A stretch of DNA of 32,026 nucleotides from positions 1 to 32,026 of the forward strand of contig CAJWLL010000027.1 in the NCBI GenBank assembly GCA_913043275.1, read 5' to 3'. A program made the position numbers and the translations under genes. Under the pieces are notes generated by a model that searched no databases, was not told the origin of the DNA, and worked only from the letters and a program-made list of their open reading frames with translations. Position 1 is the first letter of the stretch, and each line of letters opens with the position of its first letter. The stretch comes from an uncultured Flavobacteriaceae bacterium (lineage in GTDB: Bacteria; Bacteroidota; Bacteroidia; Flavobacteriales; Flavobacteriaceae). Positions 6,724 through 32,026 of the stretch are shown in pieces.

Positions 6724-6734
6724 TTGTGATTCAT

Positions 6735-6742
6735 TACATTTG
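6735..6742 (+). promoter_or_regulatory. Candidate -7 box (TACATTTG) for ssb
   Basis: It matches TAnnTTTG in the 45-base gap between mutY and ssb, 26 bases before the ssb ATG. It suggests that ssb can be transcribed independently of mutY. No convincing -33 element was found. Confidence 0.4.
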
Positions 6743-6768
6743 ATAGTGTTATCCGAAAATCTTTTATC

Positions 6769-7207: not shown

Positions 7208-8524
7208 TTGGACCCTGACCCTTTAAGTTTATTTATCATTATTCTAGATGTTCAGGGGTTGTTGATGATCAAGTTCATTTTACTTGCATTGCTATTGATA
7301 ACCTCAGGACTGGTTTCAGGTGCTGAGGTGGCTTTTTTTTCTTTGACCAAAGACCAATTGGATTCTAAAAAGGAGAAAAAGTCTAGGCAAGTGGAGATTA
7401 TTCAGAAGATGCTCCAAAACCCCAAACGCCTTTTGGCAACCATTCTAATCACTAATAATTTCATCAATATTGCCATTGTACTCTTGTTTGCTTCTCTGGG
7501 CGAGGATATCTTCAGCCAAATTGAAAATCCATTTATTGTACTTTTAATTGAAATAGGAGTAATTACTTTTTTAATTCTCTTTTTTGGAGAAATACTACCC
7601 AAGGTCTACGCCAACAGAAATGCTATGACTTTCTCCAAAGCTGTGGCTTTCCCCATCTATACGATCGACCGATATTTTTTGTTTTATCTGACTATTCCCA
7701 TGAGTAAAATTACCCGATTAATGGAGTCACGCTTGGCTCAAAAAAACAATGAATTTTCGATTGATAAATTATCTCAAGCCCTAGAGCTGACAAGTGAGGA
7801 GGAAACCACTAGAGAGGAGCAAAAAATTTTGCAGGGAATTGTAAACTTTGGGAATACCGACACCAAACAGGTCATGTGCCCTCGTATTGACGTCTTTGCG
7901 CTCTCGCAGGAAATGGATATGGAAACCATCGTCTCACTCATCCTGGAAAAAGGATTTTCTAGAGTTCCGGTTTATGCGGAGAATATCGATAGTGTTGTGG
8001 GAATTCTATATACCAAAGATTTACTGCCTCATCTTGAGCAGGCCAACTTTAAATGGCAAAAGCTATTAAAAACTGCTTTCTACGTTCCAGAAAACAAAAA
8101 ATTGGATGATCTTTTGAGAGAATTTCAACAGAAAAAAATCCACCTAGCAGTTGTGGTCGATGAGTATGGAGGTACTTCGGGTGTTATCACTCTGGAGGAT
8201 GTAATTGAGGAAATAGTGGGGGATATCAGCGACGAATTTGATGACGATGAATTGATATATTCTAAGTTGGATGATTTTACTTTTGTTTTTGATGCTAAGA
8301 TCAACCTTAAAGATTTTTACAAGGTCATTGATTTAGAGCAAGAGGAAATTTTTGAAAAAGCCAAGGGAGAGTCTGAATCCATAGCAGGCTTTCTACTTGA
8401 GATCTCTCAGGCTTTCCCCAAGATTGGTCAAATTATACAATTCGAAGGATACCAGTTTGTAATTGAATCTTTAGATCGAAAGAGAATCAAAAGAATAAAG
8501 CTTATTTTACCTCCTTCACCATGA
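7208..8524 (+). CDS. gldE: Gliding motility-associated protein GldE (CNNM/CorC-type membrane protein)
   Basis: This 438-residue inner-membrane protein combines a DUF21/CNNM domain, two CBS domains and a CorC/HlyC C-terminal domain. The membrane part covers residues 18-165, with hydrophobic segments near 18-45, 75-97 and 108-130 (LILFFGEILPKVYANRNA is typical). CBS1 is near 222-276 (MCPRIDVFAL, SRVPVYAENIDSVVGILYTKDLL), CBS2 near 288-345 (AVVVDEYGGTSGVITLEDVIEEIVGDI), and CorC_HlyC near 355-435. The preferred start is a TTG at 7208: the LDPDPLSLF beginning matches the N-terminus I recall for GldE, and no ATG occurs before residue 20. Adjacency to gldD (ATGA overlap) settles the GldE call. In Flavobacterium, GldE overexpression can partly compensate for gldD defects. 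Confidence 0.92.
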   Translation: MDPDPLSLFIIILDVQGLLMIKFILLALLLITSGLVSGAEVAFFSLTKDQLDSKKEKKSRQVEIIQKMLQNPKRLLATILITNNFINIAIVLLFASLGEDIFSQIENPFIVLLIEIGVITFLILFFGEILPKVYANRNAMTFSKAVAFPIYTIDRYFLFYLTIPMSKITRLMESRLAQKNNEFSIDKLSQALELTSEEETTREEQKILQGIVNFGNTDTKQVMCPRIDVFALSQEMDMETIVSLILEKGFSRVPVYAENIDSVVGILYTKDLLPHLEQANFKWQKLLKTAFYVPENKKLDDLLREFQQKKIHLAVVVDEYGGTSGVITLEDVIEEIVGDISDEFDDDELIYSKLDDFTFVFDAKINLKDFYKVIDLEQEEIFEKAKGESESIAGFLLEISQAFPKIGQIIQFEGYQFVIESLDRKRIKRIKLILPPSP

Positions 8525-9087
8525 GATTATCAAAATGGGTCAAGGCTTTTTTATTGATGCTGATTGTACTGCTTTTGAGTTGCGAAAGAGTCCAACAACC
8601 CAAACCAAAGGCTCAATTTCGCCTTCAGTATCCCGAGCCAAAATACAAGCAGGTACCCGATGATTTTCGTTTTGATTTTGAATATAACGATTGGGTTCAA
8701 TTAAAAGGAATTGCTAAAACAGCTCCGGATTTGTATTATCCTAAAATGAAAGCTACCTTGTATTTGTCTTATGTAGCTGTAGAAAATAATATAGATTCTT
8801 TATTAAAAGACGCATATAGACTTTCAGGGAAGCATATTATAAAGGCAACTGAAATACCCGAAAAGATCTTTTTGTCTGCAGATAAAAGAGTATATGGGAC
8901 TCTTTTTACTGTGGTGGGAAATGCTGCTTCACAATTGCAGTTTTTTGTGACAGACTCTACGGATCACTTTCTTATTGGGTCACTCTATTTTTATTCAAGA
9001 CCCAATTATGATTCTATCATGCCCGCTGCCAAATACGTAGAGCGAGATGTAATTCACCTGATGGAAACTCTGCGGTGGAAGGATTAA
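8521..9087 (+). CDS. gldD: Gliding motility lipoprotein GldD
   Basis: This 188-residue lipoprotein is required for gliding and the linked type IX secretion in Flavobacterium. A lipoprotein signal ends at C21 (LIVLLLSC), and the mature protein begins ERVQQPKPKAQFRLQYPEPKY, whose FRLxYPxPxY segment is a hallmark of GldD. The rest is a compact globular domain (DFRFDFEYNDWVQLKG; FFVTDSTDHFLIGSLYFYSRPNYDSI). It is translationally coupled to gldE by an ATGA overlap (8521-8524). Its stop overlaps the convergent HMA lipoprotein gene by four bases. Confidence 0.94.
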   Translation: MRLSKWVKAFLLMLIVLLLSCERVQQPKPKAQFRLQYPEPKYKQVPDDFRFDFEYNDWVQLKGIAKTAPDLYYPKMKATLYLSYVAVENNIDSLLKDAYRLSGKHIIKATEIPEKIFLSADKRVYGTLFTVVGNAASQLQFFVTDSTDHFLIGSLYFYSRPNYDSIMPAAKYVERDVIHLMETLRWKD

Positions 9088-9455
9088 TCTAATAGTTCGA
9101 AATCTTTGACAGAATAGGCCTCTCCAGTATTTAGAACTATTTGAGCAACTTCATTGGGAGTTATGACTTTAGGATTGAAAATCAAAGTGGCTTTTTTGGT
9201 TTCAAAATCTACTTTGGCTTCTTTTATTCCGTTGGTTTTGTTAAGGTTTTTTTCAATGAGTGCCGCACAACCCACAGAACAAATCATCCCTTCAATGCTC
9301 ATGGCCATAGGCTGGGATTCTTGGAATGAGGCTTTGTTGGTCTTAAGAGCATTTGTTTTTAACTTAATGGTTTTTTGAGATATGTTGTTTTTACAAGAGG
9401 TAAGGCTTAAAAATGAAAGCCCAATTATAACAGAGTAGAATGATATTTTTTCCAT
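9084..9455 (-). CDS. Heavy-metal-associated (HMA) domain lipoprotein
   Basis: This 123-residue lipoprotein has a signal ending at C21 (LSFLSLTSC), a polar linker, and an HMA/ferredoxin-like domain at about residues 50-118. The metal-binding loop reads GMICSVGCAALIEKNL, with C59 and C63. The spacing is CxxxC instead of the usual CxxC, a variant I recall from other Bacteroidota envelope proteins. It probably binds copper or another soft metal in the periplasm, but the metal is not readable from sequence. It starts 15 bases after the upstream M16 subunit gene, so it is the last gene of that operon. It converges with gldD over four shared bases. Confidence 0.85.
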   Translation of the reverse strand: MEKISFYSVIIGLSFLSLTSCKNNISQKTIKLKTNALKTNKASFQESQPMAMSIEGMICSVGCAALIEKNLNKTNGIKEAKVDFETKKATLIFNPKVITPNEVAQIVLNTGEAYSVKDFELLD

Positions 9456-9470
9456 GATTTAAAGTAAATT

Positions 9471-11540
9471 TTATTCAAATAAATTGTCGGGCATGGGTTC
9501 GTTAAGGATGATTGATTTTAATTGAAAATCTGCCTTTTGCGAACCCATATCTTTTTGGATAACTTGAGGGAAGAGTATCCCTTCTATTACCTTATAATTT
9601 CGAAAAGATGTCGTGGAAGATTGAACTTTCCCTTGCATTTCAATAGTCTCTACCGTTTGGAGTTTAAGAAAATCATCTACAGCATAATAAACGGTTTTAT
9701 TGTCAGACCATTTGATTTCGTATGCGTCTTTTCCATCAATGATGACGATTCTTTCTAATGAGATTTGATTGGGGTTGATTTCCAACTCGGGAAATAAGGC
9801 AGCATTTTTAATAGCATTTTCAAACTCTTCACTTTTCATCTCCGTTTTTTCTCCTTTCATTTCGTTATAACCTTTAGAGGGATTTAAGACCATTTTTTGG
9901 ATGATGTTGCCCATCATACTGATTTCTACCCGCATTTGTTTTTTAGCGGTTTGTCGGTTCGATATCTGTATGGTCATACCCTGCATACTGGCTTCCGAAA
10001 TAGAGGTTTTGGTTTTTATTACTTCCAACTTGGCCCTGCCTCCAATGGCATCTATATATCCTTCCATAATACGTTTGGCACTTAGTCCGTCCATTAGGGG
10101 TTTAGAAAAGACCGGTCTTTCTGTAACATTTCCGTATTTGTCGAAATAAAGCACATTTAATTTACGGCCATTGAATTCCATTTTTTCTAATGGGTTCAAA
10201 ACATCACTTCCCTTTCCGGTAACCACTACCCACATTAAGTTGGGATCAAAGTATTTTTTGGAGACTCTAGTAATATCTTCTCTTGTAACCTTTTGAATAT
10301 TCTTTAAAAGTTTGTTATAAAAATTGGGGGGTAATTTTTGCGTCTTGGTGTTGTAAGCGAAATTGGCAATATTTTCAGGATCCTCCATAGATCGAATAAG
10401 TGAGCCTGCATATTTTTTTTTAACAAGTTCCAATTCTTCTTCGGTGACCATCTCTTTACTCATTCGATCAACTTCATAGAGTAATTGGACCACAGCACTG
10501 TCGGTTACTGAATTGCGAACAGCGGCAAAAGCCCGCAATTGGGATTTAGTTTTATGGTTTATGTTAAAACGAGAATAAGAACCATAGGTGTAACCCTTGT
10601 CTTCCCTTAAGTTAAGGAATAGTCGAGCTTCTCCACCACCACCCAATATTTGATTGGCAATTGTTAGAGCATAATAATCGGGGTTATTTCTATCAATATT
10701 AGCAGTACATAAAACCGAAACCTCAGATTGAACGGCATTGGGCATTTCTACAAAGGCGATTTGGGCTTGGGGTAAGTTTTTTGGATTGTAAAACGTAGAA
10801 GGTACTACCTGGCCTTTGGCCCATTTCCCTAAATATTTTTTGGTCAGTTTTTTTGAGGATTCAAAGTCGATGTCCCCTACTATGGTGATGTAAGCATCTT
10901 GAGCATGAAAGTTTTTTTGATACAATTGCTGGAGATCATCTATCGAAACACTTTTAATACTCTTTTCTGAAACGAATTCACCATAGGGATGATCCTTACC
11001 ATAGGAGAGAAGATTTTCTACCCTGCGAGCTGCTGTTTTTACATCTTTTTCATTAGATTTTAATGCTTCTAAGGTTTTGTCTACTTCTTTTTGGAATTCC
11101 TCTTTAAGAAAGTGGGGGTGGAGTAAAGCATCGATCATCATTTCAAAAACCCTGGGAAAATAGCGTTTTAACGTACTGGCGTACCCACCTTGTGCATTTA
11201 AACTCAGACGGGCACCCATAAAATCTATTTCCTCCTCAAAATAATCTTTGGGAATGTTTTTTGATCCTTTTCCCATCATGCTGCTTAGTAGTCCAGATAA
11301 GCCTGCTTTTTCACCCTCCAGATAAAGGGGGTTGTCGATACTGAGGGAAACGGAAACTTGAGGTAATTTGTGGTTTTCTACTACCATAAGGGTTAGACCA
11401 TTATCAAACTGGTGTTCTTTTGGAGTTCCAAAGTTGATTTCGGGAATAGGTCCTGGTTGAGGCTGTATGGATCGATCAATTTGTGCTTTTGCATTGCCCA
11501 AAAAGCCAATGGAAACTAATAATATTAAGGCTTTTATCAT
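9471..11540 (-). CDS. M16B peptidase subunit lacking the zinc motif, with extra C-terminal domain
   Basis: This is a 689-residue exported protein (signal peptide 1-20, ending NAKAQ). Residues 35-460 form two M16-type domains. Where HxxEH is expected the sequence is LSGLLSS (residues 81-87; G83, S86 and S87 replace H, E and H), so it cannot bind the catalytic zinc. It keeps the substrate-binding motif of the second half, LREDKGYTYG (R...Y). Residues from about 480 to 689 form an additional mostly-beta region (IDAIGGRAKLEVIKT..., YYAVDDFLKLQTVETI..., GILFPQVIQKDMG) resembling the LolA/LppX lipoprotein-carrier fold; that likeness is my inference. The upstream gene, two bases away, encodes the zinc-bearing partner. 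Together they look like a heterodimeric periplasmic M16B protease. Confidence 0.9.
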   Translation of the reverse strand: MIKALILLVSIGFLGNAKAQIDRSIQPQPGPIPEINFGTPKEHQFDNGLTLMVVENHKLPQVSVSLSIDNPLYLEGEKAGLSGLLSSMMGKGSKNIPKDYFEEEIDFMGARLSLNAQGGYASTLKRYFPRVFEMMIDALLHPHFLKEEFQKEVDKTLEALKSNEKDVKTAARRVENLLSYGKDHPYGEFVSEKSIKSVSIDDLQQLYQKNFHAQDAYITIVGDIDFESSKKLTKKYLGKWAKGQVVPSTFYNPKNLPQAQIAFVEMPNAVQSEVSVLCTANIDRNNPDYYALTIANQILGGGGEARLFLNLREDKGYTYGSYSRFNINHKTKSQLRAFAAVRNSVTDSAVVQLLYEVDRMSKEMVTEEELELVKKKYAGSLIRSMEDPENIANFAYNTKTQKLPPNFYNKLLKNIQKVTREDITRVSKKYFDPNLMWVVVTGKGSDVLNPLEKMEFNGRKLNVLYFDKYGNVTERPVFSKPLMDGLSAKRIMEGYIDAIGGRAKLEVIKTKTSISEASMQGMTIQISNRQTAKKQMRVEISMMGNIIQKMVLNPSKGYNEMKGEKTEMKSEEFENAIKNAALFPELEINPNQISLERIVIIDGKDAYEIKWSDNKTVYYAVDDFLKLQTVETIEMQGKVQSSTTSFRNYKVIEGILFPQVIQKDMGSQKADFQLKSIILNEPMPDNLFE

Positions 11541-11542
11541 TT

Positions 11543-12868
11543 TTATTCTTTTTGGGGCTTAGGTAAATAGTGTAATTCCAATCGCTGATTAGAGTTGAGG
11601 TAGCTTTGAGCAACTTTTTGGATTTCCTCACGAGTAATGGATTTGTAAAGTTCAAGCTCTTTGTTGATTAGGTTCGTGTCTTTATTGTAAAAGGTGTAAT
11701 ATTCCGCCAGGGAATTGGCGATTCCTTCTATGGTAGAATTAGAATTGACAAATTCAGATTCAAACTGATTTTGTAATTTTTGGTAGTCTTTTTCTGAGAT
11801 TAATTCTTTTTGAATTTTAACTAATTCCTCGTCAATTTCAGTTATCAGATTTTCTAATTTTGTTTCACCCAGAGGTAAACTTAAAATCACATAGGTACTG
11901 TAATCCTCGTTGTTCATATTAAAAGCAGCGATCTCAAGTGACATTTTTTGCTTATCTACTAGTTTTTTATAGAGTTTAGAACTTTTTCCTTTACTGAGAT
12001 AAGTCGAAATCACGTCGAGGACTCTGGCGTCTCTAGAATTTCTTCCCGGTGTTCTGTAGGCCAAAAAAATAGCCGGTATTTGAATGTTAGAGTCAAAGGC
12101 TTCTGCTTTGATGGTCTGAGTGATGGGTAATTCTTTTGGAAATATTCGCTGAATTTCCAGACCTCGGGGGATAGTTCCAAAATAGTCTTCAATCCACTTC
12201 TTGGCTTGGGGAATCTTGATGTCCCCTGCAACAGTCAAAGTTGCATTATTGGGAATGTAATACTTTTTATTGAAGGCCATAAATTCCTCGAGGGTAGCAG
12301 CGTCTAAATGTTCCATTTTTCCAATGGTCGTTTGGCTGTATGGATGCAATTTGTACAAATAGGATTTTACTTCTTCATTCCATTTTCCATAGGGGCTGTT
12401 GTCGTAGCGCATGCGTTTTTCTTCTTTGACCACTTCGTTTTGGGTGTCAACACCGGTTTGATCAATTATGGAATGGAGCATGCGTTCGGACTCCATCCAA
12501 AGGCCCAGCTTGAGATTGTTGGAAGGAAAGTTTTCGTAATAATAGGTAAAATCATTTGTAGTGTAGGCATTGTTAGAACCTCCGTTGCCAGTAACTATGC
12601 TGAACCATTTTCCTTTTGGTATATTTTTTGTGCCTTCGAACAACAGATGCTCAAAAAAATGCGCAAAACCTGTCCTTTCTGGATCTTCATCTTTGGAGCC
12701 CACATGATACAAAACTGAGATTGTGACTATTGGGACCGAGTTGTCTCTATGCAATATTACATGAAGACCGTTATCTAGGTCGTATTCTTCAAAGACAACT
12801 TTTTGACAATAAATGAATTGAGAGCCAATAAATAAAGCTGTCAAGATACTGAGGTTAAGTTTTTTCAT
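11543..12868 (-). CDS. M16 family zinc metallopeptidase, catalytic subunit
   Basis: This 441-residue exported metallopeptidase has a signal peptide (1-21, ending FIYCQ). The inverted zinc motif HFFEH is at residues 70-74 and the third zinc ligand at E150 (NEVVKEEKRMR), the 76-residue spacing expected for the family. The second half keeps the fold but lacks the R...Y substrate motif (KLYKKLVDKQKMSLEIAAFN), which the downstream partner supplies. This division of labour is typical of two-subunit M16B enzymes. The operon order is catalytic subunit, non-catalytic subunit, HMA lipoprotein. The gap to the partner is two bases, so coupled translation is likely. The upstream spacer is AT-rich without a clear TAnnTTTG box. 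Confidence 0.93.
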   Translation of the reverse strand: MKKLNLSILTALFIGSQFIYCQKVVFEEYDLDNGLHVILHRDNSVPIVTISVLYHVGSKDEDPERTGFAHFFEHLLFEGTKNIPKGKWFSIVTGNGGSNNAYTTNDFTYYYENFPSNNLKLGLWMESERMLHSIIDQTGVDTQNEVVKEEKRMRYDNSPYGKWNEEVKSYLYKLHPYSQTTIGKMEHLDAATLEEFMAFNKKYYIPNNATLTVAGDIKIPQAKKWIEDYFGTIPRGLEIQRIFPKELPITQTIKAEAFDSNIQIPAIFLAYRTPGRNSRDARVLDVISTYLSKGKSSKLYKKLVDKQKMSLEIAAFNMNNEDYSTYVILSLPLGETKLENLITEIDEELVKIQKELISEKDYQKLQNQFESEFVNSNSTIEGIANSLAEYYTFYNKDTNLINKELELYKSITREEIQKVAQSYLNSNQRLELHYLPKPQKE

Positions 12869-13117
12869 ACTATAATTGAGCTTAAATTTAATTTAATTTA
12901 ATAAATTACCTATAAAGAAGCTAAAAGAGAATGTTTTTCTAAAGTTCTATGGGTAATTATGAGTCAGATCTATTTAGTATTTCTTTTCTTGGAGCATTAG
13001 TTAGGACTGTTTTATTAACATGAAAAAAGAAATATTTTAAAAGAAGAAATTAATCCTTAGATTCATAGTTGTTATAACGCAAGGTTAAACTCAACTTGAT
13101 CACTAAAAATCATCAAA

Positions 13118-13783
13118 ATGAAAAACAAAATTTTCATCGTTTTTTTCTCACAATTCTTTTTTCAGCAAATGTTATTAGGACAGGTTTTTTCCTTTATAAC
13201 TCAAGAAAATGGAAAACACATACAACATAGAATTTTAATGGATAAGGAGTATTTTGTAGAAACTCAATTTTCTTCCAAATCCAATCAATTTATTAAAACC
13301 ATAGGAGGCTTCTATCAAAAAAAGGGTAACGATTTGATGGTGGTCTTAGAGTTCAACTCCAATTTTCCCAAGGATAGCCTGAAAAACATTATGATCAACA
13401 ATCAAGATTATTGGAAAAAAATTTCCAATAATACATTACCTCTTCAAGGCAAGTGGTTAATGGCCGGAAGGGTTAATGGAGATCAAGAACGAAGAAGAGA
13501 TACGGACCGCCCAAGAAAAACGATGAAAATTTTAGTTGATGGTTATTTCCAGTGGATTGCGTATAATACAGCTAGCTTTTCCTTTCATGGAACAGGAGGG
13601 GGAAGTTATACCGCATTAGAAGATACCTATACCGAAACAATTGATTATTTTTCGAGGGATAACAACAAAGTAGGAATTACACTAGGGTTTGAATATGAAA
13701 AAAAAGGAATGGATTGGCATCATAAAGGATTCAGCAGCAAAGGAAAGCCCTTGCATGAAATATGGACTTATAGAATTCCCTAG
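13118..13783 (+). CDS. Secreted protein of unknown function
   Basis: This is a 221-residue exported protein with a signal peptide (about 1-21, ending LLGQ). I recognise it as a flavobacterial family usually annotated only as 'membrane or secreted protein'. The conserved block is in the C-terminal half: KWLMAGRVNG, RKTMKILVDGYFQWIAYNT, FHGTGGGSYTALEDTYTETIDYFSRDN, VGITLGFEYE, WHHKGFSSKGKPLHEIW. The alternating strands suggest a small beta-barrel or lipocalin-like fold, but that is inference. The downstream transporter begins three bases after its stop, so the two are probably cotranslated. No catalytic motif is evident. Confidence 0.75.
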   Translation: MKNKIFIVFFSQFFFQQMLLGQVFSFITQENGKHIQHRILMDKEYFVETQFSSKSNQFIKTIGGFYQKKGNDLMVVLEFNSNFPKDSLKNIMINNQDYWKKISNNTLPLQGKWLMAGRVNGDQERRRDTDRPRKTMKILVDGYFQWIAYNTASFSFHGTGGGSYTALEDTYTETIDYFSRDNNKVGITLGFEYEKKGMDWHHKGFSSKGKPLHEIWTYRIP

Positions 13784-13786
13784 TCG

Positions 13787-14731
13787 TTGGGTATATTTAA
13801 CACTATACCTGCTGCTTTTCCATGGATTGTATTGATTGCTTCGTGTCTAGCATTATACCATCCTCCACTATTTACTTGGTTTTCCGGAAATTGGATAACC
13901 CTTGGATTGGGAGGCATAATGTTGGGTATGGGTTTGACATTACGATTAGTGGATTTTCTTAGGGTGACCCAGACTCCAAGGTGGGTTATGACCGGTCTTC
14001 TTTTGCAGTTTACGGTTATGCCTTTTTTTGGTTGGCTTTTGGGAAAAGTATTTGATTTACCTCCTTTTTTTGCGGTGGGATTGATTCTGGTTTCTAGTTG
14101 TCCCGGAGGAACAGCTTCTAATGTGATTGTATTTTTATCTAGATCCAATTTGGCTTTATCGGTTACTATGACTGCCCTCTCGACCATGGTGGGGATTGTT
14201 ATGACTCCCTTGTTGACCAGTAGTCTTTCAGGTAGTGAAATTCATGTGGATGCTTTGGGCTTGTTTTATACTACGCTCAAGGTGGTCTTGGTTCCTGTAG
14301 TCTTGGGTGTTTTTCTCAATGCCCAGTTACCGCGTTACACTCAAAAGATTCAATTTTATTCCCCATCCCTTGCCGTAATACTTATAACATTGATAGTGGC
14401 TAGTATTATTGGACAGGGAAAAGAAATTATTCTTGGATCTGGTATTTCCCTTATTTTTTCCATTATGACCCTTCATCTGGCAGGATTTATTTTAGGCTAT
14501 TTTTTAAGTAAAATCTTTCTAAAAGAAGAAGGTGTGAGTAGAACTATTTCGGTAGAGGTGGGCATGCAAAATTCTGGTTTGGGAGTAGTTTTGGCCAAAG
14601 AAAATTTTGCAAACCCTACAGTGGCAATCCCAGCAGCTATTTCCAGCTTGGTTCATTCACTTTACGGAAGTATTTTCGTAGCCTTGTTCAGCAACAGAAC
14701 TGCTGAGCCTCCTATGGAAAAGGCTAATTAA
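13787..14731 (+). CDS. BASS-family (bile acid:sodium symporter-like) transporter
   Basis: This is a 314-residue inner-membrane protein with about nine or ten hydrophobic segments. The BASS signatures are GGIMLGMGLTLRLVDF in the second helix, LVSSCPGGTASNV at the first helix crossover and VEVGMQNSGLGVVLA at the second; the two crossovers hold the sodium sites in structurally known members. Bacterial members carry organic anions such as pantoate, keto acids or sulfonated compounds, so the substrate is open. The start is a TTG at 13787, three bases after the upstream stop; no ATG lies before the second helix, so the TTG or an equivalent non-ATG start is required. The gene is followed after 60 bases by an SGNH hydrolase. 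Confidence 0.88.
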   Translation: MGIFNTIPAAFPWIVLIASCLALYHPPLFTWFSGNWITLGLGGIMLGMGLTLRLVDFLRVTQTPRWVMTGLLLQFTVMPFFGWLLGKVFDLPPFFAVGLILVSSCPGGTASNVIVFLSRSNLALSVTMTALSTMVGIVMTPLLTSSLSGSEIHVDALGLFYTTLKVVLVPVVLGVFLNAQLPRYTQKIQFYSPSLAVILITLIVASIIGQGKEIILGSGISLIFSIMTLHLAGFILGYFLSKIFLKEEGVSRTISVEVGMQNSGLGVVLAKENFANPTVAIPAAISSLVHSLYGSIFVALFSNRTAEPPMEKAN

Positions 14732-14791
14732 ATCCGCTAGAAGAATTTATCTTATATTGAATACGAATTCATCTATAAACAATTTAAATAT

Positions 14792-15919
14792 ATGAAAACC
14801 AACCGTTATAGTCGACGCCAGTTTACTTCTCAATTGGTGGGAGGTTTGGTCAGCTTGGTTCTTTCTCCGGCACTATTTGCCCAAAAACCATTGATGTCAG
14901 AGAATGAAATAGATTGGTATGATGTAAAAGGAACAGGGGTAGAAGGGAAAGGCTGGAAAGACACCAAAAGATGTTTTGACCGATTTCCTTCCAAAGCTCA
15001 GGGAATGGTTCGTGAGGCCGTATGGAATCTCTCTCGTCATTCAGCGGGGATGTGCTTGCGGTTTGTTTCGGATTCGCCTAATATATATGTTCGCTATAGC
15101 CTTTACGAAGACAAATTGGCCATGTCCCATATGCCCGCTACAGGTGTGAGTGGTTTGGATTTGTACGGTAGTGATGATAATGGTATAGACCGTTGGGTGG
15201 CAGTCGTAAGACCAGAAAAAAAAGAGATAGAAACCACCATAGCCAAAGACTTGGCCCCGGGGTCACGTCGTTATACGCTGTATTTGCCTCTATACAATGG
15301 AGTAGACTCACTGGAAGTAGGTGTCTTCAAAGGACAATCTTTTAAAGCCTTAGCCCCCCGTAAGGAAAAACCCTTACTCTTTTATGGAACCTCTATCATG
15401 CACGGTGCTTGTGCATCACGACCAGGCATGGCTTTCCCGGCGATTTTGGGCAGGAGGTTGAGGAGGCCAACCATCAACTTAGGATTTTCAGGGAATGGAC
15501 GTATGGAAGCAGAGGTAGCTGCTTTGCTAGCCGAGCAAGATCCATGTGCGTATGTAATTGACTGTCTGCCCAATATGAACGAAATCAGTATCTCAGAAAG
15601 AACAGTTCCGTTGGTGAAAAAATTGAGAGAAGCACACGACAAAACTCCTATATTATTGGTAGAAGATCGAAGTTTTACTAATACTCGATTTTTCCCTTTC
15701 AGAAAATCTCATCACCAAAAAAGTCGAGCAGCACTCAAAAAAGCTTATTCTAAATTGATTGATGCCGGCATAGGAAACCTCTATTATTTGGATGGAGATT
15801 ATCTATTGGGTGAAGATGGGGAAGGAGCAACTGACGGTTCACACCCTAGCGATCTTGGAATGGTGCGTTATGCAGATGCCTATGAACCTGTTTTGAGGTC
15901 GATGCTTAAGCAGTTTTAA
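14792..15919 (+). CDS. Exported SGNH/GDSL hydrolase with GxDLY N-terminal domain
   Basis: This is a 375-residue predicted esterase or deacylase. The N-terminus has a Tat-like signal (SRRQF at 7-11, hydrophobic stretch 15-29, ending LFAQ). Residues 38-190 form the GxDLY-type beta domain, with GLDLY at 121-125. The SGNH catalytic domain follows: block I is LLFYGTSIMHG with S201, block II is NLGFSGNG (G231 or G234 region), block III is DCLPNMN, and block V is TDGSHP with D348 and H351. This family is common in polysaccharide-degrading Bacteroidota and may act on acetyl groups of glycans; the substrate is not shown. Cofactor-binding Tat export is not needed for this fold, so a Sec route is also possible. 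Confidence 0.88.
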   Translation: MKTNRYSRRQFTSQLVGGLVSLVLSPALFAQKPLMSENEIDWYDVKGTGVEGKGWKDTKRCFDRFPSKAQGMVREAVWNLSRHSAGMCLRFVSDSPNIYVRYSLYEDKLAMSHMPATGVSGLDLYGSDDNGIDRWVAVVRPEKKEIETTIAKDLAPGSRRYTLYLPLYNGVDSLEVGVFKGQSFKALAPRKEKPLLFYGTSIMHGACASRPGMAFPAILGRRLRRPTINLGFSGNGRMEAEVAALLAEQDPCAYVIDCLPNMNEISISERTVPLVKKLREAHDKTPILLVEDRSFTNTRFFPFRKSHHQKSRAALKKAYSKLIDAGIGNLYYLDGDYLLGEDGEGATDGSHPSDLGMVRYADAYEPVLRSMLKQF

Positions 15920-23462: not shown

Positions 23463-25064
23463 TTATAGAGAAATATCTCGCTTCCATGGCAGGAAGTCAA
23501 ATTGTCTATTTCGCGATGCTTTGGTGATGCTCTCCCCGCTGGCAACTTTTATAATTAACTCTAGCATATGGTCAGATAATTCTTCCAGAGTTTGAGCCCC
23601 TTCAATAATAGAACCGGTATCGAAATCAATGATGTCTTTCATTTTATTAAATACCGCTGTATTTGAGGAGACTTTAATTACAGGGGCAATAGGGTTGCCC
23701 GTTGGGGTTCCAAGACCCGTTGTAAAAATAATTAGGTTGGCTCCAGACCCTGCCATTGCAGTTGTGCTTTCCACATCGTTTCCTGGGGTGCAAAGTAAAT
23801 TCAATCCTTGATTTTTAAAATATTCTCCGTAATCCAATACATCGACAATTGGAGAGCTCCCCCCTTTTTTAGCCGCTCCGGCAGATTTCATGGCATCGGT
23901 TATGAGTCCGTCTTTGATGTTTCCGGGAGATGGGTTGGCGCTAAAATCAGTTCCTGAGGCAATCACTTTGCTTTCATAGGACCTCATGAGTTTAATGAAT
24001 TTTTTAGCTTTCTCTTTATCGACACAGCGGTCTACGAGTTCTTGCTCTACTCCTCTTAGTTCAGGGAATTCAGAAAGTATTGCACTGCCTCCTAACTTTA
24101 CCAATTTGTCCATAGAGGCGCCCAAAGTGGGATTGGCAGAAATCCCTGAAAAGCCGTCAGAACCACCGCATTCTAAACCAATGGTAAGCTTGGTAAGGGG
24201 TGTTTTTTTCCTTTCGATATCATTGACTTTTTTTATTTCAACTAGAGAGTCTTTGATTATTTTTTGAATTAAGTTGATTCCACTTCCTACTTCTTGTTGG
24301 TCAAAGATCAGTAGGGGTTTGTTAAAGTTTTTATTAATTGTTTTGAGCTGCTCAAGGAAAAGATCTACCTGTAAGTTTTGACAACCCAAACTTAAGACGG
24401 ATGCTCCGGCTACGTTGGGATTATTGACATAGCCCGCCAAAAGCTTTCCCAACATGGTAGAATCAGCTCTTGTTCCCCCACAACCAGCATTATGAGTGAT
24501 AAACCTTACTTCGACATTGGGGAAGGGATTTACAGTTTTTCGGGATTGGACGGTTTCTGATTTTCCTTGAACTAGAGTTCTTAAGAAATGCTGATGTTCT
24601 GATAATTTGTCGGGATAGAATTCTCTTTCAAAAACGGTTTTGAGCAGCTCGACGTTTCTGTTTTCGCAAAAAACCAAAGGAAAAAAAAGCCAGATGTTTT
24701 GAGTGCCTACTGTACCATCTTTACGGGGGTAACCCATAAAGTATCTTTCGTTTTTGGGCAGGCTTTGGACTGAAGATTTCCCTACATTTTCAAAACTGAT
24801 GTCTTCATTGAAGGCATTATCCATATTTTTTGTTGTAAGTGCCGCTCCCCTAGGAATATCTTGATTGGCAAGGCCTACTTTGACACCATACATGATTAGT
24901 GTGTCTCCTTTTTTTACTGATTCTTTGGTGAATTTGTGTTTTTGTTGAATATCCTCTAACAGGGTAACTTGTTGTTGTTCAAGCTTGACCGTTTCCCCTT
25001 TTTTGAGATTCTCAAGGGCAACAATCATATTATCTTGAGGATTTATTTTAATTGCTTTAATCAT
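23463..25064 (-). CDS. uxaA: Altronate dehydratase (UxaA family)
   Basis: This 533-residue enzyme dehydrates D-altronate to 2-keto-3-deoxy-D-gluconate in hexuronate breakdown. The N-terminal SAF domain covers about residues 8-85 (NMIVALENLKKGETV, KKGDTLIMYGVKVGLA, IPRGAAL). The catalytic part has GYPRKDGTVGTQN, FITHNAGCGGTRADS, GLECGGSDGFSGISANPTLG, FPELRGVEQELVDRC and FTTGLGTPTGNPIAPVIKVS, all characteristic of UxaA/GarD. Cysteines within those glycine-rich motifs are the likely metal ligands. It overlaps uxaB by four bases (ATGA at 25061-25064), so the two are translationally coupled. The pairing with UxaB makes altronate, rather than galactarate, the probable substrate. Confidence 0.93.
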   Translation of the reverse strand: MIKAIKINPQDNMIVALENLKKGETVKLEQQQVTLLEDIQQKHKFTKESVKKGDTLIMYGVKVGLANQDIPRGAALTTKNMDNAFNEDISFENVGKSSVQSLPKNERYFMGYPRKDGTVGTQNIWLFFPLVFCENRNVELLKTVFEREFYPDKLSEHQHFLRTLVQGKSETVQSRKTVNPFPNVEVRFITHNAGCGGTRADSTMLGKLLAGYVNNPNVAGASVLSLGCQNLQVDLFLEQLKTINKNFNKPLLIFDQQEVGSGINLIQKIIKDSLVEIKKVNDIERKKTPLTKLTIGLECGGSDGFSGISANPTLGASMDKLVKLGGSAILSEFPELRGVEQELVDRCVDKEKAKKFIKLMRSYESKVIASGTDFSANPSPGNIKDGLITDAMKSAGAAKKGGSSPIVDVLDYGEYFKNQGLNLLCTPGNDVESTTAMAGSGANLIIFTTGLGTPTGNPIAPVIKVSSNTAVFNKMKDIIDFDTGSIIEGAQTLEELSDHMLELIIKVASGESITKASRNRQFDFLPWKRDISL

Positions 25065-26479
25065 GACTGAAGAATTTGAAAAACCTGATAAGCCTCACTT
25101 ATTTCGTCATGTGAGGTTATGGCATTGAGCGCTTGAGTAAGGGTGTTCTTTAGCGGACCAATTTCGGTCAAATTTTGATCCCAAAGTTTAGAATTAGAAA
25201 GAGTTTCGGTTACTACTTTTTCAATTTTTTTGTCTTTCCAAACATCATTGAAAAATGAGATGATTTGGGGATCATCTTTCAGTGGGTGATTATGTTTAGA
25301 TATCTCTTTGCCATAAAAGTAAATAAGGGCAGCCATTGCAAAAGTTAAATTTTTGGGAGCCTTTCCTTCTTTTTTGTGGTAAGAAAGTAAACTGGGGAGG
25401 ACCCTAACTTTGAATTTCGATATGGAATTTAATGAAATAGATTCTAATTGGTGAATGATAAAGGGGTTTAAAAAACGTTCCAAAACCGATTGCGCATAGT
25501 CTTCTAATTCTTGCTTGTCAAAATCTACACTTGGGATAATTTCATCAAATAGTGTCTCGGAGATAAAAGTTTTTAGAAAATCATCTTTTAGGGTCTCCGA
25601 AACGGTCGGTGTTCCGTGGAGCAGGCCTACAGGGACAAGTGTTGTGTGGCTACCATTTAGTATCCTCACTTTTCTAGTTCTGTAGACTCCCAGGTCTTGG
25701 ACGACCTTTACATCAATGTTTTTTAATTGATCAACTGGAAAAATTTCGAGTAGTTTGGAATTTCCTTCAATTACCCAGAGGAAAAAGGGTTCACATGTAA
25801 CGATTAATTGGTCATCAAAGGGCAAATCTTTTTTGTAAAATTCAAGATCTTTTTTGGGAAAACCGGGAACTATCCTATCGACCAATGTATTGTAAAAATG
25901 GTTCTGATGAATCCAAGCAATGAAAGAATTTTCAAGCCCCCATTTTTTACAAAGCTCCAAAATTATTTCTTTGAGTTTGCTACCGTTTTTTTCGATCAAT
26001 TCGCAGGGAATGATGTGTAAAACTTTTGATAGATCTCCGTTAAATGTTTTATAACGATGATAAAGTAGCAGTGTTAGTTTGCCTGGGAACGATTCGGGTG
26101 GGGTGGCCTTAAATTGATCATCATGATTTAAGGCAATACCAGCTTCAGTTGTATTAGAGAAGATAAAAGTTAAATTTTCATTTTCAGCTAGTTTTAAGAA
26201 ATGATCAAACTCTTGATAGGGGTTTATCATTTTGTCGATACAGTTGATTTGCCGTCCCTCCCTTAAATTTTTTCCTTCCATCACCCCCTCGTGAAACAGA
26301 TGGTATTTTCCATTTTGTTTTTTTAGCTGATCTATCATCCCATTGGGTATGGGTTGAACGATATTTACTTTTCCCGAGAAAGAGCTTTTCTCATTTAGCA
26401 ATTGAATACAATAATCTACAAAAGCTCTCAGGAAATTTCCTTCACCAAATTGAATGCTATCTGTGATAATGTTTTTCAT
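25061..26479 (-). CDS. uxaB: Tagaturonate reductase (UxaB)
   Basis: This 472-residue member of the mannitol dehydrogenase/altronate oxidoreductase family reduces D-tagaturonate to D-altronate with NADH in the D-galacturonate route. SIQFGEGNFLRAFVDYCIQ (residues 9-27) is the N-terminal nucleotide-binding motif, NLTFIFSNTTEAGI follows as a typical strand, and KVRILNGSHTTLVPVG contains the family signature with the catalytic lysine region. The length agrees with UxaB (about 480 residues). It is the first gene of the operon; upstream lies a 110-base region with a 20-base inverted repeat that could be an operator. No uxaC or KDG kinase is in the window. Confidence 0.93.
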   Translation of the reverse strand: MKNIITDSIQFGEGNFLRAFVDYCIQLLNEKSSFSGKVNIVQPIPNGMIDQLKKQNGKYHLFHEGVMEGKNLREGRQINCIDKMINPYQEFDHFLKLAENENLTFIFSNTTEAGIALNHDDQFKATPPESFPGKLTLLLYHRYKTFNGDLSKVLHIIPCELIEKNGSKLKEIILELCKKWGLENSFIAWIHQNHFYNTLVDRIVPGFPKKDLEFYKKDLPFDDQLIVTCEPFFLWVIEGNSKLLEIFPVDQLKNIDVKVVQDLGVYRTRKVRILNGSHTTLVPVGLLHGTPTVSETLKDDFLKTFISETLFDEIIPSVDFDKQELEDYAQSVLERFLNPFIIHQLESISLNSISKFKVRVLPSLLSYHKKEGKAPKNLTFAMAALIYFYGKEISKHNHPLKDDPQIISFFNDVWKDKKIEKVVTETLSNSKLWDQNLTEIGPLKNTLTQALNAITSHDEISEAYQVFQILQS

Positions 26480-26841: not shown

Positions 26842-27963
26842 TTAAGTTTTAATAAACTCTGAAGGGCTTTTTCCGGTAAATTTTTTAAAATTATTATAAA
26901 ATGTAATTCTTGATTCGAAATGGCTTGACTTTGATAAAGATTCTATAGTATGTCCATGCAAGAAACCTTGATGAATTAATTTTATCGAAAGAGCTATCTT
27001 AAGAAAATTAAAGTATTCATGGAATGTCAAATAGTTATAGTATTTAAAAATAATCTTTAAATGTGAATTAGGTGTTTTTAATTTTTCAGAAAGCATTTTT
27101 ATATTTATTTCGCTACTATTTAAAAAATTAAAATCTTGTTCAAAAGACTTTAAAGAATATATTAAATCAGGAACCGACTTACTTATTTTGTCATATATCA
27201 ACTGATCCGAATTCTCCACTTTTTTTAAAACTTTATATTTCCATGGATCATATAATTTAGACCTTGTATTTAATTGAAATAAAAGATAATCTTTACCAAA
27301 GACAATAACTGGATTTAAAACAACGTAAATCAGGCATATAGCCCACATGATAGAACTACTCCTATAAAAGTCTGTAAGTACCATGTGGGGTTTAACATTA
27401 TCAACTATATCTAATGGACTAGTATGCCAATAAAGTACATTGTAATTTAGAAAAAATGTAATTATTGTTAAGTTTGAAAACATAAGAATTAGCCACCTGA
27501 AAATTATCTTATTGAATGAGAATTTCAATATTATTTTTTTGTAGTTTTTTAATACTAGAGTTAACATCAGAATCCAGTAAACAGTTGTGAATAAGAGAAA
27601 GATTATCCTATTAAAATAATCAGGAATAATTTGTAATTGCTTAATAATTAATAATAATAAAGGTAAAATTAGGTGAATCAAATCGCTATATGAAGTATTT
27701 CTTTCCTCTAATGAATTTTTAAAAAAAAATAAGAAAATAGGAATAAAAACCAGAGCTATAAAGGGAGATGTTTCAAATGGGGATTTGAAAACTATTAAAT
27801 TCATATTCGCCATAAAGTTTTGAAATCGCTGTAATCCAACAATCAAAATAATAATGAAAAATGGTAAATTAAAAAGTCTGTTAAACCTAAATGAAGCTAT
27901 CAACATTAAAATTATAATTAGACATAAAAAAGTCACAAAAAGCCCAATAAAATCTAAAATCAT
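26842..27963 (-). CDS. Membrane-anchored AraC-type transcriptional regulator
   Basis: This is a 373-residue protein with six or seven hydrophobic helices in residues 1-230 (for example FIGLFVTFLCLIIILMLIASF and WLILMFSNLTIITFFL) and a C-terminal AraC-type helix-turn-helix region at about residues 275-373. The DNA-binding part shows INIKMLSEKLKTPNSHLKIIFKYYNYLTFHEYFNFLKIALSIKL and the classic end SHFESRITFYNNFKKFTGKSPSEFIK. Such 7TM-HTH proteins occur in Bacteroidota as sensors that bind DNA from the membrane. The coding region is more AT-rich than the genes before uxaB. It is divergent from the giant repeat protein gene across 268 bases, which makes that gene a natural candidate target; this is inference. 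Confidence 0.85.
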   Translation of the reverse strand: MILDFIGLFVTFLCLIIILMLIASFRFNRLFNLPFFIIILIVGLQRFQNFMANMNLIVFKSPFETSPFIALVFIPIFLFFFKNSLEERNTSYSDLIHLILPLLLLIIKQLQIIPDYFNRIIFLLFTTVYWILMLTLVLKNYKKIILKFSFNKIIFRWLILMFSNLTIITFFLNYNVLYWHTSPLDIVDNVKPHMVLTDFYRSSSIMWAICLIYVVLNPVIVFGKDYLLFQLNTRSKLYDPWKYKVLKKVENSDQLIYDKISKSVPDLIYSLKSFEQDFNFLNSSEINIKMLSEKLKTPNSHLKIIFKYYNYLTFHEYFNFLKIALSIKLIHQGFLHGHTIESLSKSSHFESRITFYNNFKKFTGKSPSEFIKT

Positions 27964-28231: not shown

Positions 28232-31200
28232 ATGTTATCTAAACTTTACTGGTTTACAAGTAAAAAAATACCTTTTTTTACGCTTGTATTACTACTTCCT
28301 TTTCTGTTTTTTGGACAATCAGATTTTTATTGGGTTGGTGGAAATGGTAACTGGTCTAACTATTCATCGCACTGGGCAACATCCTCTGGCGGAAATATTT
28401 TTCACACCACCTCTCCAGGTTCAAATGATAAAGTGATTTTTGACAGCAATTCATTTTCCCAAGCAAACCAAACGGTCAACTTAGATTCAGACAATCAAAG
28501 TTTTAAAGATATGTCATGGGTTGGTGTGACTGATAATCCTAAGTTTAACATGTCTGGTAAAACCTTTGAAGTCCATGGTAAAGTTGAATATGATCCTAAC
28601 ATGCAATTTCAAAGTGTGGGAACTTTATCATTTGTTTCTAGCGCTACAGGTTCTATTATTTCAGGGGGACATAATCTTGGTAACATTTATATCAGAAAGC
28701 CATCTGGGACATTTCATTTATTAAGCCCCATAAGAGCTTCCCACTTTGAAGTGAGAAACGGCTCTACTTTCTACACCAATGATTATGACATACGTGCCTC
28801 ATATTTATATTTTTACGGAGGAACTACTACCACAACAATTTATACAGGGACTTCCGAACTTCTTGTTGAGGGAGGACAGATGAAGGTTTATTATCAGAGT
28901 AATAGTTCAAGCAGCAAATATCTTGAGGCGAATATTGTTAGTAGTACAATCATTTTAGATAATGCTACTTTAAATGGAAGATATATTCATCATCCTAAAA
29001 TAAATGACATCAATTTTGGACATGTTATCTCGAGGAATAGTAGAAACAGAGATTTTGGAGAAGGAGTAGATAGAGTTAGGAAGTTTGAAATTCAGAAAGG
29101 GACAAATAATGAAAACTATGAGCAAAAGATCCACTATTATTTTGAAGGGATAATTGATACGCTTGATATTGAAAGTAAAAAAGTTAAATTCGAAACAGCT
29201 ACAAATCGTAATCCAAAAATTGGAGTTTTTAATGTAAAAGGAGATGGAGTTACTATTGAGATAAGTCATGGATCAACCATTACGGTTTCTAATAGTTTGT
29301 CATTTCAATCTTCCTCTTGTTCTGTTGTAAACATTAAGTCAAATAGTGCTGGAAATCAAGCAACAATTAATTATGTAAGCGGTGTGACCACTGCTACCAA
29401 TTTAAGTATTAGAGATATTTCCTTAACAGGAAGTGGTACAATTACAGCGCTAAATTCTGTAGATGGAGGAAACAACTCAGGCATTAGCATTTCACAGCAA
29501 GCTTCTAGGAACATGTATTGGGTTGGAGGGACTGGTAATTGGAGTGACCCTATTCACTGGTCAACCTCGGACGGAGGAACGGGGAATGTATGCGCTCCCA
29601 CACCTAATGATAATGTATTTTTCACTTCAAATTCATTTTCAGCGTCAAACCAAGAGATTACTCTAAATGTAGACAACATTGGGATTGTAAATATGGATTG
29701 GACAGGTGTTGCCAATAATCCAAAGTTTAATATGGGAGGTAAGACCGTGGAAATAACTGGATCAGTCACTTATACTGCTGATATGACATTCCAAAGCGTA
29801 GGAACATTAAGCTTCTTATCAACAGATACAACTTCAATTTATACTGGAGAAACAACCACCAATTCAGCAAGGAATCTTGGTAACATTTATATCAGAAAGC
29901 CATCTGGGACATTTCATTTATTAAGCCCCATAAGAGCTTCCCACTTTGAAGTGAGAAACGGCTCTACTTTCTACACCAATGATTATGACATACGTGCCTC
30001 ATATTTATATTTTTACGGAGGAACTACTACCACAACAATTTATACAGGGACTTCCGAACTTCTTGTTGAGGGAGGACAGATGAAGGTTTATTATCAGAGT
30101 AATAGTTCAAGCAGCAAATATCTTGAGGCGAATATTGTTAGTAGTACAATCATTTTAGATAATGCTACTTTAAATGGAAGATATATTCATCATCCTAAAA
30201 TAAATGACATCAATTTTGGACATGTTATCTCGAGGAATAGTAGAAACAGAGATTTTGGAGAAGGAGTAGATAGAGTTAGGAAGTTTGAAATTCAGAAAGG
30301 GACAAATAATGAAAACTATGAGCAAAAGATCCACTATTATTTTGAAGGGATAATTGATACGCTTGATATTGAAAGTAAAAAAGTTAAATTCGAAACAGCT
30401 ACAAATCGTAATCCAAAAATTGGAGTTTTTAATGTAAAAGGAGATGGAGTTACTATTGAGATAAGTCATGGATCAACCATTACGGTTTCTAATACCTTAA
30501 ACTTTGGATCCAAATCAGGAACTAGGAATTATATTAAGTCAAATAGTAGTGGGAGTCAAGCAACTATTAATTATCAAGGCGGTGATGTTTGCGCAGATTA
30601 TCTTAGGGTTAAAGATATAACTCTGCTGTCTAGTTCAACAATCACTTTGGGGCCTTACAGTCAAAATGAAGGAAATACAAGTGGTTTTAACTTTAATACG
30701 GACACAAGTAATACTATTTCAGGAATGACAATTTCTGTGAGTCCAACAGGATTGTCTTATTACGAAAATCAGCCGATTTCATTTGTTATTTCGTCAACTT
30801 ATTCAAACAACAACTCAGCAACTTTTCACTTTTTTGTAAACAGTCAAAAAACACAAAGTAGTACATCTACAACCTTTTCCGGGAACAATTTAAAAAATGG
30901 AGATAAGGTCTTCGGTTCAGTTGAAATTCCCTATACAGGGACAGTTACAGGGTGTAATTTCACCACCATTGGTAAAACAGACGAAATCACCCTGAGTTTA
31001 AATTTATATCCAGTTATTACCTCAAGCACATATTCTCAAACTAACAATAAAGTTGCAGTTACTTTTAACGAGCCTGTTTTCACAGCAAATTCCGGATCAG
31101 GGAATCTTATTCCATCTGATTTTGAATTTTTATTAACTGGAGGAACAGCTGTTTTAAATTCAAACCAGCCTAACAGTGTAACCAAAAGTGAAAACACATA

Positions 31201-32026
31201 TACTTTAGGTCTTAATATTTCAAACCAAGCGGGAAGTGAAGTATTGACAATCAAACCCAAATACAACCAGATCTTTGATAAAGATGGTAGAAGGTCGGAT
31301 CAAAATCAAAGTAATAATTCAGTTAGACTAGGAACTGTTAGCGCTAGTCTTTTAAGTGCAGCTGTATCCTCAGATAATCTTACTGTACTGGTTACTTTTA
31401 GTGAAAATGTTTTTTCTACTGTAAATGGAAGTGGAGCCCTAGAGCCATCGGATTTTATTTTACAAATGAGTGGGGGGACGGCAACTCTATCCTCTACTAC
31501 TCCTATATCTATTTTTTCAGATAATTTTAAGCACTCATTAGGCTTTACATTTGGTGGAGTACCTAATGGAAACGAGGTAATCAACGTAAAGCTTGCAAAT
31601 AATTCAGTATTCGATATTCAGGGAGTCGCTCTTCCACAGATTCAAACTAATAGTTCCTCAAATCTCAAAGCTGATGCCGATGCTGATGGAATTGCCAACC
31701 CTGTTGACCTATGTCCAAATACTGCAAATGGAACAGCTGTAAATATGAATGGATGTGCTGACAGTGCATCTAAATACTTTTGGGTCGGAGGTTCGGGAAA
31801 CTGGTCAGACTTTTCTAGTCATTGGGCTACCACTTCAGGAGGAAACGTGTTTCACTCTAGATCCCCTAACGGGAATGATAATGTATATTTTGATAGATTT
31901 TCTTTTACTGCTAGTGGACAGACAATAACTGTTGATTCGGATGCCTCTTCTCTTAAAAACATGAGTTGGATTGGAGTTACCAATAACCCTACCTTTAATT
32001 TTAATAGTAAATCCATTGATGTTTTT
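28232..32026 (+). CDS. Giant secreted repeat protein, adhesin-like (3' end beyond window)
   Basis: An open frame of 1265 codons runs to the window edge. A signal peptide covers residues 1-28 (FTLVLLLPFLFFGQ). Three WVGG modules follow, with the motif YWVGGxGNWS..HW..: W34, W430 and W1184, each continuing into a NPKFNM-like segment and, in the first two, QSVGTLSF. After the first two comes a beta-rich solenoid-like region, residues 148-354 and 548-754, which are identical. Residues about 830-920 look like an Ig-type domain. Two repeats at about 926-1035 and 1038-1145 (VAVTFNEPVF..., VLVTFSENVF..., each with SDF and a GG) resemble SwmB/Ig-like cell-surface repeats. A thrombospondin type 3-like calcium loop, ADADADGIANPVDLCPN, starts at 1147. 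A type IX secretion signal would be expected at the unseen C-terminus. It is probably a surface adhesin or gliding-related protein; the function is inferred. Confidence 0.85.
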   Translation, partial: MLSKLYWFTSKKIPFFTLVLLLPFLFFGQSDFYWVGGNGNWSNYSSHWATSSGGNIFHTTSPGSNDKVIFDSNSFSQANQTVNLDSDNQSFKDMSWVGVTDNPKFNMSGKTFEVHGKVEYDPNMQFQSVGTLSFVSSATGSIISGGHNLGNIYIRKPSGTFHLLSPIRASHFEVRNGSTFYTNDYDIRASYLYFYGGTTTTTIYTGTSELLVEGGQMKVYYQSNSSSSKYLEANIVSSTIILDNATLNGRYIHHPKINDINFGHVISRNSRNRDFGEGVDRVRKFEIQKGTNNENYEQKIHYYFEGIIDTLDIESKKVKFETATNRNPKIGVFNVKGDGVTIEISHGSTITVSNSLSFQSSSCSVVNIKSNSAGNQATINYVSGVTTATNLSIRDISLTGSGTITALNSVDGGNNSGISISQQASRNMYWVGGTGNWSDPIHWSTSDGGTGNVCAPTPNDNVFFTSNSFSASNQEITLNVDNIGIVNMDWTGVANNPKFNMGGKTVEITGSVTYTADMTFQSVGTLSFLSTDTTSIYTGETTTNSARNLGNIYIRKPSGTFHLLSPIRASHFEVRNGSTFYTNDYDIRASYLYFYGGTTTTTIYTGTSELLVEGGQMKVYYQSNSSSSKYLEANIVSSTIILDNATLNGRYIHHPKINDINFGHVISRNSRNRDFGEGVDRVRKFEIQKGTNNENYEQKIHYYFEGIIDTLDIESKKVKFETATNRNPKIGVFNVKGDGVTIEISHGSTITVSNTLNFGSKSGTRNYIKSNSSGSQATINYQGGDVCADYLRVKDITLLSSSTITLGPYSQNEGNTSGFNFNTDTSNTISGMTISVSPTGLSYYENQPISFVISSTYSNNNSATFHFFVNSQKTQSSTSTTFSGNNLKNGDKVFGSVEIPYTGTVTGCNFTTIGKTDEITLSLNLYPVITSSTYSQTNNKVAVTFNEPVFTANSGSGNLIPSDFEFLLTGGTAVLNSNQPNSVTKSENTYTLGLNISNQAGSEVLTIKPKYNQIFDKDGRRSDQNQSNNSVRLGTVSASLLSAAVSSDNLTVLVTFSENVFSTVNGSGALEPSDFILQMSGGTATLSSTTPISIFSDNFKHSLGFTFGGVPNGNEVINVKLANNSVFDIQGVALPQIQTNSSSNLKADADADGIANPVDLCPNTANGTAVNMNGCADSASKYFWVGGSGNWSDFSSHWATTSGGNVFHSRSPNGNDNVYFDRFSFTASGQTITVDSDASSLKNMSWIGVTNNPTFNFNSKSIDVF
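28673..29294 (+). repeat. 622-bp perfect direct repeat, copy 1
   Basis: It is identical to 29873-30494 at every base, offset exactly 1200 bp, and encodes residues 148-354 of the giant protein. Identity begins at AATCTTGGTAACATT and ends after TACGGTTTCTAATA. The flanking DNA on both sides is related but clearly diverged. Confidence 0.97.
29873..30494 (+). repeat. 622-bp perfect direct repeat, copy 2
   Basis: This is the second copy of the repeat, encoding residues 548-754. Only the stretch after its right end, such as ATTAAGTCAAATAGT, is again shared with copy 1 in a patchy way, showing an older repeat unit that surrounds the homogenised core. Confidence 0.97.

Follow-up and report, generated by a model that had tools for sequence, protein, structure and literature searches.

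Near-identical repeats are already known to let surface proteins change length by recombination, as reported in the available parts of two studies (PMC8201768, PMC9704523). The closest known class is that of the Periscope Proteins, described there as carrying long, highly identical coding repeats, with intragenic recombination proposed to change repeat number and length. The locus described here resembles them in having a repeat of more than 50 residues with very high DNA identity: its 207-residue core is 99.3-100% identical within each of four genomes (G000, G006, G015 and G019). In Periscope Proteins, as those accounts portray them, whole repeated domains form the stalk, whereas here the likeness is confined to the 207-residue core and the modules around it are diverged in the two-copy genomes. 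Periscope repeat number varies between strains; here two cores (a minimum) are seen in G000 and three in record L053, a different species. The present case rests on comparison across species and on concerted evolution in an uncultured marine group.

Fibrillar adhesins of Bacteroidetes, in the available part of the study consulted, are long multi-unit proteins with CHU_C anchors (PMC8286594). The protein described here is likewise long and multi-unit, and in the relative L053 its C-terminus carries a CHU_C domain; unlike the adhesins so described, the part of it within the window contains no known adhesive or stalk family at the Pfam cut-off. SprB-like type IX surface proteins carry a type B C-terminal signal and adjoin a PorP/SprF gene. 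Both features were found in L053, but no SprB repeat family was present in the pieces scanned. Diversity-generating retroelements combine a reverse transcriptase with a template/variable pair of repeats; the copies in the window are instead identical within one open reading frame. No earlier report of repeats kept alike in this way, whether in type IX or in marine surface proteins, was found in a search that covered a small share of the matching literature and few subscription journals. New here are homogenisation that is limited to the core and spares the diverged modules around it, traced across several species of an uncultured marine group; a core that changes fast from species to species, with signs of interspecies exchange; and a crossover-type array together with a second array in one protein (L053).

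The window, the whole stretch of DNA analysed, is the complete contig C27 (32026 bases) of genome G000, an assembly of 2.01 Mb in 64 contigs and 88% complete. The following features were recognised:
26842..27963, - strand: divergent AraC-type regulator adjoining the giant gene (Pfam HTH matches, both slightly below cut-off)
28232..32026, + strand: giant gene, 5' part only, 1265 codons, running off the contig end
28328..28672, + strand: m1, the first WVGG module
28673..29294, + strand: core copy 1, 622 bp, from an exact-repeat search
29297..29515, + strand: p1, the segment after core 1 and first part of the 578-bp spacer
29516..29872, + strand: m2, the second WVGG module and second part of the spacer
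29873..30494, + strand: core copy 2, identical to copy 1, from the same search
30497..30766, + strand: p2, the segment after core 2, limits approximate
30767..31756, + strand: linker region, probably Ig-like repeats, no Pfam hit
31778..32026, + strand: third WVGG module, cut by the contig end; the matching place in L053 opens a second array

The Ig-like repeats of the linker are presumably SwmB-like, and its end gave a weak TSP_3 match (E 0.0051, below the Pfam cut-off). Pfam and NCBIfam searches of the window's protein yielded no model for the WVGG unit, only a few matches below cut-off that we do not believe. The unit looks like an unnamed domain family, and distant Bacteroidota have tandem copies of it. 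The final 47 bases of the window have no second occurrence in G000 at up to two mismatches, so the rest of the giant gene is not linkable. Two G000 contigs start with C-termini of this kind of protein; neither could be assigned to the gene.

An earlier note on this DNA had described two 622-bp copies matching at every base, and this was confirmed in the assembled sequence: 28673-29294 equals 29873-30494 at an offset of 1200, both copies lie within the reading frame that starts at 28232, and the pair is the only exact direct repeat of at least 25 bp in the window. Its description of the surroundings also held. The WVGG modules preceding the cores are only about half alike (55% identity over 114 aligned residues), the segments after them are diverged (45% over 74), and the edges are sharp, with mismatches starting immediately on either side. 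Synonymous identity was compared with the flanks, as had been proposed: the G000 cores show no difference over 139.5 synonymous sites, against pS values of 0.64 and 0.62 in the flanking segments, and cores aged like those flanks would be expected to carry about 86-89 synonymous differences. Core (622 bp) and spacer (p1 plus m2, 578 bp) together make a unit of 1200 bp. The exactness of that offset had been taken as a possible sign of artefact; it is 400 codons, and relatives have 1200 (G002, G015) or 1197 (G006, G019). The start of the identical block falls between -10 and +9 of a landmark codon in all five genomes compared. In G006 and G019 it extends to +569, in G000 to +625, and the G015 copies are still identical at +573, where the contig stops. 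The common left edge may be self-maintaining, m1 and m2 being too different to recombine, or may reflect selection that keeps the modules separate.

Among named records, the nearest come from uncultured marine Flavobacteriaceae or Bacteroidetes and include FRAM18_bin161 (titled Flavobacteria bacterium MS024-2A). The available part of one study places FRAM18_bin161 in group NS5_D and counts MS024-2A species there (PMC9122927). The window likely belongs to the same genus as these relatives. The N-terminal part of the gene was present in 8 of the 22 genomes of the genus set, which includes G000 itself: G000, G002, G006, G008, G010, G015, G017 and G019. A search with the core found seven of them, all except G017, whose contig reaches only a short way into the core; the remaining same-genus matches to the gene cover the later linker region only. 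From their names we take G006 (AG-914-G02) and G019 (AG-430-N14) to be single-cell genomes. A second core was seen in four genus genomes besides G000, namely G006, G019, G015 (a perfect match over 583 bp, then the contig end) and G002 (the first 55 bp only, then the contig end). Two further records beyond the genus set, L053 and L056, carry the gene, and L053 has three cores. In a family sample of 299 genomes, three match the m1-core-p1 stretch, G000 and G015 among them. The IMG/VR search returned no relative (43 stretches fitted a pattern, none was confirmed). Tandem WVGG units also occur in distant Bacteroidota proteins (L058-L064). In all seven distant frames with related units examined for exact repeats (L058, L059, L060, L062, L063, L064 and L065; L061, L066 and L067 are outside this count), the longest exact direct repeat was 15-48 bp. 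The third WVGG module is clearly unlike between the otherwise very similar G019 and G006, as if it had been swapped.

Comparison with these orthologues, a check suggested in the earlier note, revealed the same layout, with core letters that differ by species and modules that keep their position. Within a genome the two cores are 100% identical in DNA in G000 and G015, 99.6% in G006 and 99.3% in G019; the alternative named in the note, cores diverged to the degree of their flanks, is thus not what G006, G015 and G019 show. Between species, core protein identity is 42-58% (leaving out the 19-residue piece of the second core of G002), with 81% for G000-G002 and 96-98% for the closely related G006 and G019. 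Modules compared position by position are 66-72% (m1) and 62-71% (m2) identical between species, two close pairs apart, and m1 and m2 of one genome 54-62%. The core protein is therefore less conserved between species than the modules adjoining it.

In DNA trees, modules and post-core segments each split by position (support 100/100 for both), with the m1 of L053 placed among the m1 sequences and its other two modules among those of m2. Cores were grouped by genome, the four G006/G019 copies being mutually unresolved, in a tree for which the program gave a long-branch warning. A single clade of position-1 cores was rejected (p-AU 1e-92) in a test where two sets of identical rows spanned both sides and were left free. 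A clade of both modules of one genome was rejected in five of five genomes (p-AU <=2e-4; L053 lay outside the test). In the comparison of G006 with G019, the variation at 15 core sites does not follow position, nine having changed in both copies of a genome together and six in one copy; none of the 31 such sites in modules and post-core segments is concerted (Fisher p 5e-6). These concerted changes indicate that homogenisation has been ongoing since the two split. Flanks that follow position and cores that follow genome are, as read from the sequence comparisons, concerted evolution in several species. They suggest that recombination prevents the cores within a genome from drifting apart, even as the segment changes fast between species. 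The recent homogenisation by recombination proposed in the note thus gained support from the trees and from the 9/15 versus 0/31 sites. Its appeal to gene conversion can be refined: the tract is better read as the shared end of a tandem array of the form m1-[core-spacer]n-core-p2 than as an isolated conversion tract.

Record L053 extends this picture. Its first array is ordered m1-c-p1, m2-c-p1, m2-c-p2 (c, core), the arrangement that unequal crossing-over within a core should produce. Modules two and three are 97-100% alike, post-core segments one and two 96-100% along most of their length, and the cores 89-100% per 60 columns when substitutions alone are counted; the cores also differ by indels. 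Farther along the gene (about 11784-15265) lies a second array, of three units with a period of about 1161. Its first module differs while the other two are alike, and post-segments 1 and 2 are alike while the third differs. The window's contig ends where an array of this kind would start. A query from the second array matched 8 of the 22 genus genomes, through WVGG-bearing and neighbouring parts; no assembled core of that array was seen in these eight. We take L053 to be probably a long-read contig, judging by its resolved arrays. The genomes paper, in its available part, used PacBio with metaFlye beside Illumina with Megahit, and its main text, as far as available, makes no mention of bin161 (PMC8254474). 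L053 is an imperfect witness, with cores only 89-100% alike, indels, and a repeat-bearing part (about 7.5-14.7 kb, positions ~7500-14700) broken into many frames, the genes on either side being open. Two units of its second array have identical frame breaks; the breaks may stem from sequencing error or from decay of the gene, and the order of the units is independent of the cause. Length change by recombination, another proposal of the note, is supported by the three-core array as a comparison across species.

We consider it probable that the gene encodes a long type IX-secreted fibre of beta-solenoid units of about 400 residues, in which recombination between cores both homogenises the cores and changes the number of units. 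Homologous recombination between cores, by unequal crossing-over with or without gene conversion, would leave the cores of one genome near-identical and add or remove in-frame units of 400 codons in a first array of the form given above; m1 and p2, lying outside the repeat, would retain their own old sequence. The agent would presumably be RecA-type recombination, length would be predicted to vary within one species, and surface exposure may account for the fast change of the core.

Parts of the gene also seem to have moved between species after their split, as synonymous divergence within it is low relative to that of its neighbours. For G000-G002, six neighbouring genes have dS from 0.96 to 2.00, one being saturated; within the giant gene the first half of m1 is saturated, then dS is 0.65, with 0.32-0.73 in the core, 0.29 in p1 and 0.16-0.26 in m2. 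For G000-G010, dS is 0.45, then 0.09, and reaches 0 in the 16 visible core codons, against 1.04-2.12 in neighbouring genes. For G000-G008, two neighbouring genes are low as well (0.42 and 0.56), which counts against the exchange being special to the giant gene. The dN/dS of G000-G002 is 0.23 in the core, 0.02 in m1, 0.08 in p1 and 0.26 in m2; by the last value the core is not alone in being elevated.

The assembly bears on how literally the window can be taken. Two other G000 contigs, C8 and C36 (L069, L071), share their first 55 bases and then differ, which suggests that the window's assembly is a k=55 graph. (The shared 55 bases fall within the C-terminal parts of other large surface proteins.) Identical cores would there form one edge with a loop (p1 plus m2), and a single walk of such a graph would give the sequence seen and merge small differences. 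The two cores in G000 are consequently a minimum, the true number may be larger, and the 100% identity may include a few core differences merged by the assembler. That one core, or two diverged cores, had simply been written twice is nonetheless very unlikely. The layout recurs in the single cells G006 and G019, where 2 and 4 sites of the block distinguish one copy from the other, and in G015 and L053, and copies 1 and 2 precede different segments that each match their counterparts in relatives. Six of the ten contigs with the gene (G002, G008, G010, G015, G017 and L056) stop inside the core, which is what a real repeat would lead one to expect; the contig of the window breaks off later in the gene. 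The G002 contig ends exactly 55 bp into the repeat. That of G017, whose name contains k141, ends 131 bases past the landmark codon, or 141 if the repeat starts 10 bases earlier as in G015; graph assemblers leave contig ends of this sort where they meet a repeat. An inverted piece at the end of L056 is an assembly fault. The artefact worry raised in the note therefore falls as regards the duplication itself, on which separate assemblies, two single cells and a probably long-read contig agree, but persists for copy number and literal identity.

The complete absence of differences in G000 and G015 would also fit a single recent core duplication without continuing exchange. This is highly improbable: the layout is common to G000, G002, G006, G015, G019 and L053, and m1/m2 and p1/p2 diverged anciently, so the duplication predates these species. 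The changes in both cores after the G006-G019 split contradict it too, unless the core was re-duplicated per lineage between the same modules. Gene conversion without crossing-over, correcting the copies while their number stays at two, agrees with the common left edge (5/5 genomes) and with the count of two cores on all four genus contigs that show more than a short piece of a second one. The three cores of L053 and the hybrid middle unit m2-c-p1 in each of its two arrays speak against it, and short-read copy numbers are minima; we regard it as unlikely, though well worth keeping in mind. Rewriting of the cores from partial silent copies elsewhere in the genome might explain the fast change of the core between species. 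We find it hard to credit, as the G000 core protein matches only its two places and the DNA of the gene only itself, and each of the 12 core matches across the 22 genus genomes, themselves incomplete, falls on a contig that carries this gene; no partial donor copies were found elsewhere in the 88%-complete G000. Strict selection on the sequence, without recombination, would account for the identity of all residues in the two G000 copies. It is contradicted by the identity of the silent sites and by a core protein less conserved between species than the modules, and we give it practically no weight.

Recombination between cores, the reading we prefer, would act on a unit for which structure models were made. 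A one-unit structure model (mean pLDDT 91) and a two-unit model (pLDDT 86.7, pTM 0.74) are nearly all strand. The repeats of Periscope Proteins form a rod that projects a functional domain; here no projected functional domain was identified. Foldseek, run against the PDB with E values up to 10, gave 143 matches, the best at 0.14 and none at <=0.001. Many of the best 50 of these 143 are beta-helix proteins (adhesin PfbA, phage tailspikes, polysaccharide lyases), which suggests a fold class only. On these models the unit would be a beta-solenoid and the protein a surface fibre of changeable length, a putative function. The giant gene probably encodes a surface protein, and adhesion would be a candidate role. 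After its arrays L053 encodes TSP3 repeats, CHU_C (PF13585, 4.8e-19) and TIGR04131 (35.4 bits, cut-off 35), and its giant gene is followed by a PorP/SprF gene (PF11751, 2.7e-35). Type IX secretion is thereby indicated for this relative only, the window's gene being cut before its end.

The window and five of five syntenic relatives have a divergent AraC-type regulator next to the gene. A distant one (24% identity) occupies the same place in L053 (5781-6893, - strand) and L056 (about 6361-7185, - strand), where the surrounding genes differ. From this conserved position the regulator is presumably linked to the giant gene; regulator and surface gene look as if they travel as a pair. At 23463-26479 (- strand), altronate/galactarate dehydratase-like and mannitol dehydrogenase-family genes suggest a uronate-use locus, and one might speculate that it is tied to what the surface protein binds.

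It is possible, though we hold the idea only tentatively, that the core is a uniform, fast-changing surface cassette, in which a new version, whether a product of mutation or acquired from another species, is copied by recombination to all cores while the modules serve as fixed connectors. Each cell would then display one uniform type at a time and the species would switch types quickly, two arrays of one protein (both present in L053) would be under the same rule, and phage or grazer pressure would be a natural cause.

In marine bacterial genomes, repetitive surface genes are where short reads leave breaks or blurred sequence, and copy number and perfect identity taken from such assemblies are bounds only. 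The locus offers a natural test of recombination holding parts of a surface protein uniform in each cell, yet variable between species and in length.
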